Source of the DNA: a virus
DNA: 48,407 bases
Direction: 5' to 3' (one strand)
Virus record (IMG/VR): IMGVR_UViG_3300046458_000150
Coordinates: 1 to 48,407 of that record
In this document: piece by piece, positions 3,264 to 46,437 of the stretch
How the letters are laid out: each line of letters starts with the position of its first letter
How positions within the stretch are numbered: the stretch's first letter is position 1
Translations under genes and position numbers: made by a program
Notes under the pieces: generated by a model
What the model was told of the DNA's origin: nothing
Databases searched by the model: none
Seen by the model: the letters and a program-made list of their open reading frames with translations, nothing else

Positions 3264-3592
3264 AAGACCACACCCCGATCGTGTTGGAGTATTCTGGTCG
3301 TTAAGGCCCAACCCCATGTGTTTATTGACGGCTAACGCATATCACCACTGCATGCACAAACGCATGATTGGCATTGGGTGGCATGGATTGGCGTACGATT
3401 TGCGCCATTTTCGCCCCGCACTCGCCACTCCTCCTACCGGGTTCCGGGTCCCGACGGCGATCTTAACGATGGGCAAACCATTCCCTCTGACAGGCAGAAT
3501 TCGGTCAAATGCGGACCTGAACTTAGCGATGGCTAAGGCACCATCTATTAGCGATAAAATACGTTATCACCATTTTAAAAGAGGAGCTGCCG
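3264..3592. other. Intergenic stretch upstream of the HEPN-like gene
   Basis: No credible gene. It contains the direct repeats TTAACGATGG, TTAGCGATGG and TTAGCGATAA (about 3464-3558), followed by a short palindrome GATAA-N6-TTATC just upstream of the HEPN-like gene. The repeats may be a regulator binding region or part of a promoter; no clear -35/-10 pair was found. Confidence 0.35.
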
Positions 3593-4270
3593 GTGGATAT
3601 TTCAGAACCGCACTGGTATATCCATCCAGTCCGCGCAGGCTCGATGGTGCAGACTTATGTCGACGTCACCGAGCAAGCATTTGGGGATTTTCTGGATGAG
3701 GTCGCAACAGGTGGGTTGGGCCTATATGAGGGACCACGTTTTAGCGGCATCAAGACCATCGTATTTGCTGCGATGGCCATCGAGGCGGCGGCATTTGAGT
3801 TTGCGGCCACATCCCTAGGTGATCTAGAAGCCAACAAGTATTCTCTAGACAGGATGAGCTTGGTACCTAAATGGAAGAGGCTGACCCGCAAGATTTGTGG
3901 CCAATCGCTCGACAAAAAAGGCCTCGCAATCAAAGGCCTCGCTAAGCTCGTGCAAGCTCGAAATAAACTAGTGCATTACAAGTCAGAACCGGAAAACGTC
4001 GCAGGAACGGTCAGGGAGACCATGAGGACCGAATGGGTCCAATTTGAAGAAGATCAGGTACCCAACGCCTTCATGACCCTGGTGCTTCTCTCACTCGAAC
4101 TGGAAGCGTCGCCCTGCGGCATTTTTGGCAGCATTCTTTGGCGCGATAGAAGCATCTGCCCACCGGGTTTCCGTAACGACTACTCACCTCATCCTCGCGT
4201 AAAGAAGGTCATTGACCGTTGCCGAGAGATCCATGAAAAGCAACTTCTGAGGAGAGCTTCAGGTGTCTGA
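3593..4270 (+). CDS. HEPN-motif protein of an accessory island
   Basis: A 225-residue protein starting at GTG with GAGGAG (3581-3586) six bases upstream. Around residues 120-128 the sequence VQARNKLVHYK contains R-N-K-L-V-H, exactly the Rx4H motif of HEPN domains. Those domains are RNases or RNase-like effectors in many toxin-antitoxin and defence systems. The rest is mainly alpha-helical, consistent with a HEPN bundle, with no partner nucleotidyltransferase gene next to it. The last 8 bases overlap the start of a truncated integrase gene, so the two were probably co-transcribed as mobile-element cargo. HEPN is inferred from one motif plus helical content. Confidence 0.55.
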   Translation: MDISEPHWYIHPVRAGSMVQTYVDVTEQAFGDFLDEVATGGLGLYEGPRFSGIKTIVFAAMAIEAAAFEFAATSLGDLEANKYSLDRMSLVPKWKRLTRKICGQSLDKKGLAIKGLAKLVQARNKLVHYKSEPENVAGTVRETMRTEWVQFEEDQVPNAFMTLVLLSLELEASPCGIFGSILWRDRSICPPGFRNDYSPHPRVKKVIDRCREIHEKQLLRRASGV

Positions 4271-4439
4271 TCTTGTCCTTTCCAGCGAACGCCGACTGAC
4301 AGCAGCCGAGTTCCAGCAGTTGGCCAGCGTGCCGGCCGAATTCGAGTGGTTCGTCAATTTTGACATTAGGACCGATGCTTTGGGTGGAATACGGTTATTG
4401 GAATACCAATTACAGGATAGGGATTCGAACCCCTTCTAG
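4263..4439 (+). pseudogene. N-terminal stump of a site-specific tyrosine recombinase
   Basis: From GTG at 4263 the frame reads VSDLVLSSERRLTAAEFQQL and continues through ASVPAEFEWFVNFD. This matches the N-terminus of Pseudomonas island integrases (SAM-like core-binding domain) as I remember them. Those continue with NPRTRRAY, but here the sequence departs after NFD and hits TAG at 4437. The catalytic domain is missing. The gene overlaps the preceding HEPN-like gene by 8 bases. Confidence 0.6.
4420..4433 (-). other. tRNA T-arm-like remnant, candidate old attachment scar
   Basis: On the minus strand the sequence reads GGGGTTCGAATCCC, a canonical tRNA T-arm with TTCGAAT loop. No acceptor stem, CCA or anticodon arm can be folded around it, so it is not a tRNA gene. 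It lies exactly where the integrase stump departs from its family, which fits an att sequence carrying a tRNA 3' end. Confidence 0.4.
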
Positions 4440-5000
4440 CGTCTTTGTAGACCGCCTAAGGCCACAAATTACGGTTCTTTCAACCATTGCTTGTGGCGTC
4501 CTACGGTTTATAGCGGCCCTGAATCTGCCCTAATTTTGCCCTAAATTTTGCAAAAAATGTCACTTCGATGGAGAAAGCGCCAATGGCTGTTCGCACCCGA
4601 TGGACGCAGCAAATCATCGGGGGTAACCAAGGCACACCATGCATTGGACTCAATCCCTTGATCAATTTGCTGTACGGATATACAGTACCCGAGCGGCACA
4701 AGAGAAGGAACTCCTCGAGCGGCATCGCAGCCTTGATATGGAAGCCTTTTGATGATCTTGAAGACCTTATGCCGCGTCCAACACGTGAAATGGAACCCGC
4801 TCGGCAAATTTTTTCTCCACGAGGCGCCGAGGATTCGCACTCCTTCATCCTCTATGGATACGGGCAATCCCGTGCAAATCCTCCCTTCTGAGTCTATAGT
4901 CGCCGGTGAATGTATCCGTTTCTACTATTAGGCCCCCTGTAGCGGTTAATAGTTGAAAGCTACGGGAGCATATTTTTTCTTAGGAAGCGTTTGATTCTTC
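4440..5000. other. Degenerate region between integrase stump and TIGR04255 cassette
   Basis: No convincing gene. Several overlapping frames of 60-115 codons are open on both strands without ribosome binding sites. The minus strand carries AGGGCA repeats (4510-4545) and a short frame ending GQIQGRYKP, which could be the tail of another recombinase. An SOS box sits inside at 4670. A GTAGC/GCTAC inverted repeat lies near 4940-4965. I read this as decayed mobile DNA. Confidence 0.4.
4670..4685. promoter_or_regulatory. Orphan LexA (SOS) box
   Basis: CTGTACGGATATACAG fits CTGT-N8-ACAG and is identical base for base to the box in front of umuD at 8854-8869. No intact gene starts within 100 bp on either side, so it is probably left from a deleted SOS-regulated cassette. 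Confidence 0.7.
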
Positions 5001-44567: not shown

Positions 44568-45047
44568 ATGACTGCAGTTCAGATCTGCGCACTGATAGCA
44601 ATCGCCCTTACAGCGGGCGCCCTCTACTGGATCGCCTACAGGGACGGCTTCAAAAGCGGCTGCATCGACGGCTATTCAAAGGGTTACAGCGAGGGCCATG
44701 AAGACGGGGGCATCGTCGGGTTTGAAGAAGGAATGAAGGAAGGTAAAACCAGACAGCATCATGAGAACTGGGAAGCGATGAAAAAATTGGAAGACTCTAC
44801 CTACGACGCTCGCGACCAATACAAGCAGCTTTACGCCCATTACGAGCGAGCCCTCGCTGCATCAAAACTGGGTGAACAAGAACGACTGACCCTACTGGAA
44901 ATCGCTGAGAAACTTCGGATCGCCTCTGAGACGTTCAGCGCCTTTCGCACCGGCAAAAAACTGGAATGCGACACCCGCGCCCTGCGTTATCAGGCGCTCG
45001 CCATCGCAGCGCTACTTGAGCCAGCAAATCAGGAGAGCGCCGCATGA
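44568..45047 (+). CDS. Small membrane-anchored phage protein
   Basis: A 159-residue protein with an N-terminal membrane segment (ALIAIALTAGALYWIAY, residues 7-23), a glycine-rich stretch with repeated GY/GxxEG pairs (GCIDGYSKGYSEGHEDGG), then a long coiled coil and a helical tail. The start is chosen by AGGAG eight bases before ATG. ATGA overlap with the next gene. Function unknown. Confidence 0.72.
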   Translation: MTAVQICALIAIALTAGALYWIAYRDGFKSGCIDGYSKGYSEGHEDGGIVGFEEGMKEGKTRQHHENWEAMKKLEDSTYDARDQYKQLYAHYERALAASKLGEQERLTLLEIAEKLRIASETFSAFRTGKKLECDTRALRYQALAIAALLEPANQESAA

Positions 45048-45403
45048 GCCTGACCTGCCCCCAATCCAACACCCACCGTAACCCGGCACACGCCCCACCA
45101 GCGGCTGATAAACCAACGCGCAATAGAACCTCGGAGGAAAGCGGTATGCAAAAGGACCAACAAAACACCCAATACACGACTGCTTTGCTCCGCAAGAAAA
45201 CCAGCGTCGACGCATTAGAAACAAACAGCCTCTGCTGCGCAGCAGCAGGCATTATTGCTCCTTCCAGCAGCACCACCGAGGCGCTTATATCCCACGAAAA
45301 GCTGCGCGAGGCAGCCACACCCAATGCAACGCTAACCGCTCAGAATCGCTCGCCCGCGCAGCTTGCTCAGGGGTATAAGCGTCCTTCATTGGAGGCCGCG
45401 TGA
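45044..45403 (+). CDS. Hypothetical phage protein
   Basis: A 119-residue low-complexity Ser/Thr/Ala-rich protein (MSLTCPQSNTHRNPAHAPPA). No recognised domain. Lies between two genes with 4-base overlaps (start and stop), which supports translation. Its stop overlaps the GTG of the methylase. Confidence 0.6.
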   Translation: MSLTCPQSNTHRNPAHAPPAADKPTRNRTSEESGMQKDQQNTQYTTALLRKKTSVDALETNSLCCAAAGIIAPSSSTTEALISHEKLREAATPNATLTAQNRSPAQLAQGYKRPSLEAA

Positions 45404-46155
45404 ATGAGCTGGCTCTTTTCGCAGGCGCTGGTGGCGGAATACTCGGCGGCCAGCTCCTCGGCTGGCGCACCGTCTGCGCCGTTGAGCGCGATGCCTACGC
45501 CGCACAGATTCTGGCGCAACGACAAACCGATGGATTGCTCCCGCCTTTCCCGATTTGGTCTGACGTGTGCAGTTTTGACGGACGACCATGGCGAGGACTT
45601 GTTGACGTGGTTTCGGGAGGATTTCCTTGTCAGGACATCTCGGCCGCGGGCAATGGTCTGGGCATCGCCGGCGCACGCTCTGGACTGTGGAGACAGATGG
45701 CACGAATTACCGATGAGGTACGACCGCGCTACGTCGAGTTGGAGAACTCACCGTTGCTTGTGGGAAGAGGTCTTGCCGTCGTGCTCGGTGACCTTGCCGA
45801 AATGGGGTATGACGCGCAATGGGGTGTTATCGGAGCGGCTGACTTCGCCGCTCCGCATCAGCGGAATCGAATCTGGCTCATTGCAGAGGACAGCACGCAG
45901 GCGCTGGCCAACGCCGGTGGCGAGCATGGCCAAGGGGTCCTCTCCTGCCGCATTGACTCGCCGATCCGGGGCAAACCGCACAAACGATCGCCTGGATCAT
46001 GCAGTGATGGCACTGGATGGTGGTCATCTGAACCCGGACTGGGCCGAGTGGCTGATGGGGTGGCCTATCGGCTGGACCGACTTAAAGCCATTGGCAACGG
46101 ACAGGTTCCAATCGTGGCAGCGAGCGCATTCAAGCTACTTTTCAACAGACAATAA
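45400..46155 (+). CDS. Phage C5 cytosine DNA methyltransferase
   Basis: A 251-residue methylase from GTG at 45400. Motifs in order: I (LALFAGAGGG), IV (SGGFPCQDIS with catalytic Cys), VI-like (ELENSP in place of ENV), VIII (QRNRIW) and X (LKAIGNGQVP). The target-recognition part is short, as in small phage enzymes. One Shine-Dalgarno sequence GGAGG (45391-45395) lies four bases before this GTG and eight bases before the ATG of another long frame in the same DNA. Confidence 0.9.
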   Translation: MNELALFAGAGGGILGGQLLGWRTVCAVERDAYAAQILAQRQTDGLLPPFPIWSDVCSFDGRPWRGLVDVVSGGFPCQDISAAGNGLGIAGARSGLWRQMARITDEVRPRYVELENSPLLVGRGLAVVLGDLAEMGYDAQWGVIGAADFAAPHQRNRIWLIAEDSTQALANAGGEHGQGVLSCRIDSPIRGKPHKRSPGSCSDGTGWWSSEPGLGRVADGVAYRLDRLKAIGNGQVPIVAASAFKLLFNRQ

Positions 46156-46171
46156 CCAGGAGGCCGCATGA
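45404..46171 (+). CDS. Overlapping 255-codon frame inside the cytosine methylase gene
   Basis: A second frame starts at ATG 45404, four bases after the methylase GTG, and stays open for 768 bases. It carries segments I know from separately annotated phage proteins: SVTLPKWGMTRNGVLSERL, WPTPVASM and WLMGWPIGWTDLKPLATD. Its ATG has better spacing to GGAGG than the methylase GTG. Its stop overlaps the next gene by ATGA, and AGGAGG for that gene lies inside it. It is therefore likely translated, though it could be a conserved shadow of the methylase. Function unknown. Confidence 0.5.
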   Translation: MSWLFSQALVAEYSAASSSAGAPSAPLSAMPTPHRFWRNDKPMDCSRLSRFGLTCAVLTDDHGEDLLTWFREDFLVRTSRPRAMVWASPAHALDCGDRWHELPMRYDRATSSWRTHRCLWEEVLPSCSVTLPKWGMTRNGVLSERLTSPLRISGIESGSLQRTARRRWPTPVASMAKGSSPAALTRRSGANRTNDRLDHAVMALDGGHLNPDWAEWLMGWPIGWTDLKPLATDRFQSWQRAHSSYFSTDNNQEAA

Positions 46172-46437
46172 ACACCCTTTTCCTGTTGATGGCCCAGTAC
46201 AACGGTCAGGCAGTTATTTCCCTGGATCGCGTATGCGCCGATTACATGAATCTGACCGTGGAGAAATTCAAGCATAAGCGCTTGTCGGGAGAGATCGATA
46301 TACCTGTGGTTCGCCTAGGTGCCAATAGCCAGAAAGCCGGGCTGGGCATCCACCTGAAGGATCTTGCCGACTACATTGATCGACAGCGTGAAAAGGCCAC
46401 TCGCGAGCAGAATCAATTGATGGGCAGGGTTGCCTGA
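46168..46437 (+). CDS. PrtN-family activator, second copy
   Basis: An 89-residue protein (MNTLFLLMAQYNGQAVISLDRVC) ending GIHLKDLADYIDRQREKA, close to the PrtN consensus from start to end. In P. aeruginosa, PrtN activates pyocin genes after RecA-mediated loss of PrtR. AGGAGG is four bases before ATG. It is the last gene of the early-right operon, before a strong terminator. Confidence 0.88.
   Translation: MNTLFLLMAQYNGQAVISLDRVCADYMNLTVEKFKHKRLSGEIDIPVVRLGANSQKAGLGIHLKDLADYIDRQREKATREQNQLMGRVA

Follow-up and report, generated by a model that had tools for sequence, protein, structure and literature searches.

Two completely overlapping reading frames in a phage cytosine methylase locus probably encode the two chains of one DNA methyltransferase

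The window, the whole stretch of 48,407 nucleotides of viral DNA that was analysed, has its closest named relatives in Pseudomonas genomes and is a Pseudomonas-type prophage or phage record. On its plus strand two open frames run through the same DNA. Frame A (alpha-like) starts with GTG at 45,400 and ends at 46,155 (251 aa), and frame B (beta-like) starts with ATG at 45,404, lies in the +1 register relative to A and ends at 46,171 (255 aa). A Shine-Dalgarno sequence common to both, GGAGG at 45,391-45,395, lies 4 nt from the GTG and 8 nt from the ATG. An upstream ORF in the same frame as B (45,044-45,403) terminates at the TGA within GTGAATG. The TGA stop of B (46,169-46,171) shares ATGA (46,168-46,171) with the start of the next gene, which is of the PyocinActivator/PrtN type (46,168-46,437; PF11112, 1.3e-25; phrog_1300, excisionase); an integrase gene accompanies this PrtN/excisionase-type gene downstream of A/B. 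The preliminary description of the locus was exact as to the coordinates, the registers, the single Shine-Dalgarno sequence and the ATGA overlap.

Frame A is a C5-cytosine methyltransferase. It matches PF00145 (6.9e-29), phrog_363 (2.6e-60) and, over residues 4-162, HhaI (4e-11), and it carries motifs I, IV (PCQ), VI (ENx), VIII (QxRxR) and X, with PCQ, EN, RxR and GN among the conserved columns of its alignment. Motifs I-VIII fall in region 1 (45,400-45,885), where B has its N-terminal part, and motif X (RLKAIGNGQVP) lies at 46,078-46,110. Between VIII and X, motif IX is absent from chain A. A motif IX-like segment sits instead in frame B (LNPDWAEWLMGWPIGWT, 46,028-46,078), within region 2 (45,883-46,077), where B also has a recognition-like segment (WPTP.A..KG).

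Using B as the query, we found no match in Pfam or NCBIfam and nothing significant in a PDB profile search. Its WPTP and WLMGWPIGWTDLKPLATD segments match phrog_1008 (8e-22) and phrog_26627 (1e-15), among other PHROG matches; phrog_1008 and phrog_16143 are labelled DNA methyltransferase and match frame-B or second-chain ORFs without motifs I-VIII. Both segments had at first been linked to separately annotated phage proteins. B is indeed annotated as a CDS of its own in some phages, but as a stand-alone gene it was not found, as all 97 B-carrying loci of the mixed set overlap an A in the +1 frame. The C-terminus of B (WPTPxASxxKG ... LNPxWVEWLMGWPxGWT) matches sequence that stands in frame ahead of motif X in the monomeric Fancypants methylase, and it also matches the second chain of each split pair (Peaches, Dorothy and Euratis). 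With hhalign, its motif-IX piece matched, at 97%, the motif IX that monomeric methylases of mycobacteriophages carry in frame; a direct profile comparison of the monomer motif IX with the canonical one was in register and not significant, with two templates only. In the structure model of one monomer (L580) the catalytic domain matches HhaI, and segment 161-219 is of low confidence. Since the C-terminus of B matches recognition and motif IX sequence, the parts of the enzyme appear to be divided in the order A (I-VIII), B (recognition-like segment, IX) and A (X). AlphaFold2 gave a poor model of B alone (pLDDT 57.5, pTM 0.29). This fits a partner-dependent chain, although the model itself does not demonstrate a partner.

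Whether frame B is more than an accident of the methylase sequence was addressed by shuffling the synonymous codons of A and counting the stops that arise in B as the expectation. Relatives were gathered with B (L001-L080) and separately with A alone (L081-L160, and distant ones L258-L337). In the window, 3.3 stops were expected, and a stop-free B arose in 156 of 20,000 shuffles (P = 0.008). In nearly every intact relative examined, the B frame is open at the same place. For 112 unique intact loci together with the window (113 sequences), one B-frame stop was observed versus 410 expected, and for 143 unique loci with full-length B none versus ~507; such totals overstate the independent events, because related sequences are treated as separate, but the divergence between lineages reaches ~35% identity in A. 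The depletion extends over all of B in the 143 loci, with no stop versus 54 expected in region 1a (A codons 5-60), 329 in region 1b (A codons 60-162) and 123 in region 2 (VIII to X). For the 48 of these loci found by A alone, the count was 0 versus 167 expected in all.

The 123 distant relatives contain a built-in negative control: over A codons 5-60 they have 219 B-frame stops versus 206 expected, and B is neutral there (rate ratio ~1). Farther on, the stops are depleted, with 20 versus 374 over A codons 60-162 and 11 versus 150 from VIII to X. By the same shuffle approach, stops are not depleted in the third frame. In the reverse test, A-frame stops given B were 0 versus ~860 expected (408, 359 and 94 over three stretches, the 359 in region 2), which indicates that A is read through region 2 to motif X. 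That B is a chance or composition-driven, untranslated frame is scarcely credible: the P value of a single sequence is modest and the conserved motifs of A constrain the +1 frame somewhat, but no stop versus ~507 was seen in loci spanning 46-63% GC, and the controls (third frame, region and chromosomal) gave the expected results.

For 59 independent pairs, sequence changes were counted and sorted according to what they do in each of the two frames, with bootstrap intervals on the rates. In region 1, A is under strong constraint (dNS/dSS 0.07) and B under moderate constraint (dSN/dSS 0.42 [0.34-0.55]). In region 2 the order is reversed, with strong constraint on B (dSN/dSS 0.03 [0.02-0.06]) and a nearly neutral A (dNS/dSS 0.62 [0.46-0.95]). 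A sliding profile shows the dominant frame passing from A to B just past motif VIII, and A is dominant again at motif X. The residues of A between VIII and X hardly matter, although the frame is held open; over the C-terminal stretch of B, frame A looks like a tolerated, near-neutral reading. Similarity of B that is passively inherited through the homology of A was excluded as the sole cause, as dSN/dSS is below 1 and B is neutral in region 1a of the distant relatives.

Taken together, these comparisons strongly support the view that the locus is dual-coding, with A and B in the same DNA. Dual coding had been proposed at the outset, and it has stood up well: the B core is unbroken where A is kept, synonymous sites of A are constrained, and both frames are under purifying selection in the 59 pairs. 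The accompanying suggestion, that a protein arose by overprinting of a methylase gene, is plausible for the N-terminal part of B and fails for its C-terminal part, which is ancestral methyltransferase sequence (recognition segment and IX).

The start region is conserved as well. The junction RTGAATGA (R including seven loci with TTG) is present in 130 of 141 loci with full-length B, and the commonest Shine-Dalgarno spacing among the relatives is that of the window (64 loci), which is best for B. In six loci (L066, L075, L105, L148, L166, L239) the A start reads TTA and the ATG of B is retained; A must therefore start upstream in these, where other possible starts exist. Of 129 loci, 61 have an upstream ORF, 60 codons or longer, that terminates at the TGA of this junction. 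The distant relatives have no B start at the start of A, and internal B ATGs are frequent near A codons 53-55 or 69.

By analogy, M.EcoHK31I (YGGCCR) is the closest precedent for the A/B locus. Lee, Kam and Shaw (1995) reportedly described its small chain as the product of a gene nested within that of the large chain, in a different frame, and here, too, the second gene lies in another frame of the first. The likeness, judged by motif distribution and not by sequence comparison, lies in a large chain with I-VIII and X and a second chain with IX. Unlike in M.EcoHK31I, B begins at the start of A and overlaps all of it, and the genes are phage or prophage orphans. Moreover, the recognition-like segment is here in the B frame, and the interval between VIII and IX shows constraint on B and near neutrality of A. 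M.EcoHK31I has been reported to consist of two polypeptides, with motifs I-VIII and X on the large chain, motif IX alone on the second and the predicted TRD on the large chain (PMC3404938).

M.AquI and the phage split pairs (Peaches gp77/76, Dorothy gp71/72 and Euratis gp33/34) likewise combine a catalytic I-VIII chain with a recognition/IX chain. They differ in that motif X is on the second chain, whereas here it is in frame A, and the annotated overlap of the phage pairs is only 23-32 nt. In these mycobacteriophage and Streptomyces phage pairs, the start of the second chain lies in the +1 frame. The frames of second chains of split pairs (L340:1193-2188, L338, L339) are already open ahead of the annotated starts, and in Euratis the +1 frame spans nearly all of gp33. 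The monomer gp73 of Mycobacterium phage Fancypants has the same catalytic domain and differs in carrying all motifs in one frame; its in-frame LLPTPSAADG, PEWMMGWPAGWVT and GNGVVPQQA are homologous to the C-terminus of B and to motif X of A.

A further arrangement is found in Streptococcus phages, whose methylases are complete in one frame, with TRD, IX and X all in A. Even so, their +1 frame has no stop over motifs IV-VIII versus 399 expected, and third-position differences of A fall from 0.28 and 0.24 to 0.10 over these motifs. The pair of Streptococcus thermophilus phage P0091, gp39 with the annotated gp40 (phrog_16143), shares the open, constrained +1 frame with the window and differs in that its B is ~140 aa and lacks motif IX. 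This +1 frame (L341:1154-1576, L348-L427) closes with SLSDILEEQVEDKYFLS followed by a short tail, and gp40 of P0091 is a separate GenBank CDS. Since the frame is open and constrained in complete methylases, the part of B over IV-VIII has a role beyond motif IX. An open +1 frame as a general property of C5 methyltransferases was rejected: ordinary chromosomal ones, which have no B match, show near-normal +1 stops (~117 versus 137). All chromosomal methyltransferases resembling the phage type have an open +1 frame. In the catalytic-domain tree, its presence needs one change, with the root and the Streptococcus branch not firmly placed.

Overall, we consider it quite probable, from the comparative data, that the locus encodes a two-polypeptide C5-cytosine DNA methyltransferase from fully overlapping frames. 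Frame A would give the large subunit, with the AdoMet-binding and catalytic motifs I-VIII and X and a tolerated linker between them, and frame B the second subunit, with its N-terminal part followed by the recognition-like segment and motif IX. Ribosomes may load at the single Shine-Dalgarno sequence and start either at the RTG of A or at the ATG of B four bases on, with initiation partly coupled to the TGA of the upstream gene. Both chains would then be translated and assemble into one modification enzyme, whose presumed activity would be to mark the phage DNA and probably to protect it from host restriction. The two-subunit reading is supported by the division of I-VIII and X from IX, which is that reported for M.EcoHK31I, and by the overlap of every B of the mixed set with an A. 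The constrained +1 frame of the Streptococcus monomers, which have TRD, IX and X in A, counts against it, as does the predicted TRD on the large chain of M.EcoHK31I, since the corresponding interval is here constrained in B.

The Streptococcus frame leads to a further possibility concerning the origin of B, which we regard with some reserve and as having perhaps one chance in three: the N-terminal part of B may be an ancient, independent protein overprinted on motifs IV-VIII, with a function of its own in Gram-negative, actinobacterial and Streptococcus phages. This protein would later have grown into the recognition/IX segment and, in one clade, also backwards as far as the start of the methylase.

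It is rather unlikely that the whole of B is a separate protein, such as a regulator or a counter-defence protein, overprinted on the methylase, with the likeness to motif IX as a relic. The constraint on its N-terminal half, the persistence of this half, but not of the IX segment, in Streptococcus phages and the annotation of B as its own CDS would agree with such a protein; its strongest constraint, however, is in the recognition/IX segment, exactly where A has lost that segment, and B was never found without A in the mixed set.

Considerably less likely still is a programmed +1 frameshift close to where motif VIII ends, which would fuse the catalytic part of A to the recognition/IX part of B and leave the remainder of B incidental. 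The passage of constraint from A to B just past motif VIII and the existence of fused single-frame versions speak for such a shift. B is, however, open and constrained far upstream and has a conserved start context. Frame A continues without stops across region 2 as far as motif X, so that the pattern expected of a shift product was not found, and the fusion product would be without motif X.

The overlap is retained across hundreds of phages and prophages, and in nearly all of them only one of the two frames is annotated. A literature search returned no description of an A/B overlap in phages, and such absence is not proof of novelty. What appears to be new is the complete overlap from a common start site, its spread over phages of several bacterial phyla and its deep conservation. 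Among same-strand overlapping genes of phages, the A/B pair appears to be one of the longest, most widely distributed and most deeply conserved, and it would extend M.EcoHK31I, reported as a curiosity, to a large phage family. The A/B reading would also explain the PHROG families called DNA methyltransferase that are without catalytic motifs, and the locus may serve as a clean natural case of constrained frame switching inside one gene.

A few loci are irregular. Single indels, by mutation or sequencing error, swap the frame partners of A and B in eight of them (L035, L036, L040, L041, L053, L071, L072 and L076). A has an in-frame stop at codon 106 in L018 and ends early at codon 234 in L002, with B intact in both. 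In L014, the A/B locus is closely followed by a second, distant methylase ORF (3477-4802), which is 26% identical to A.
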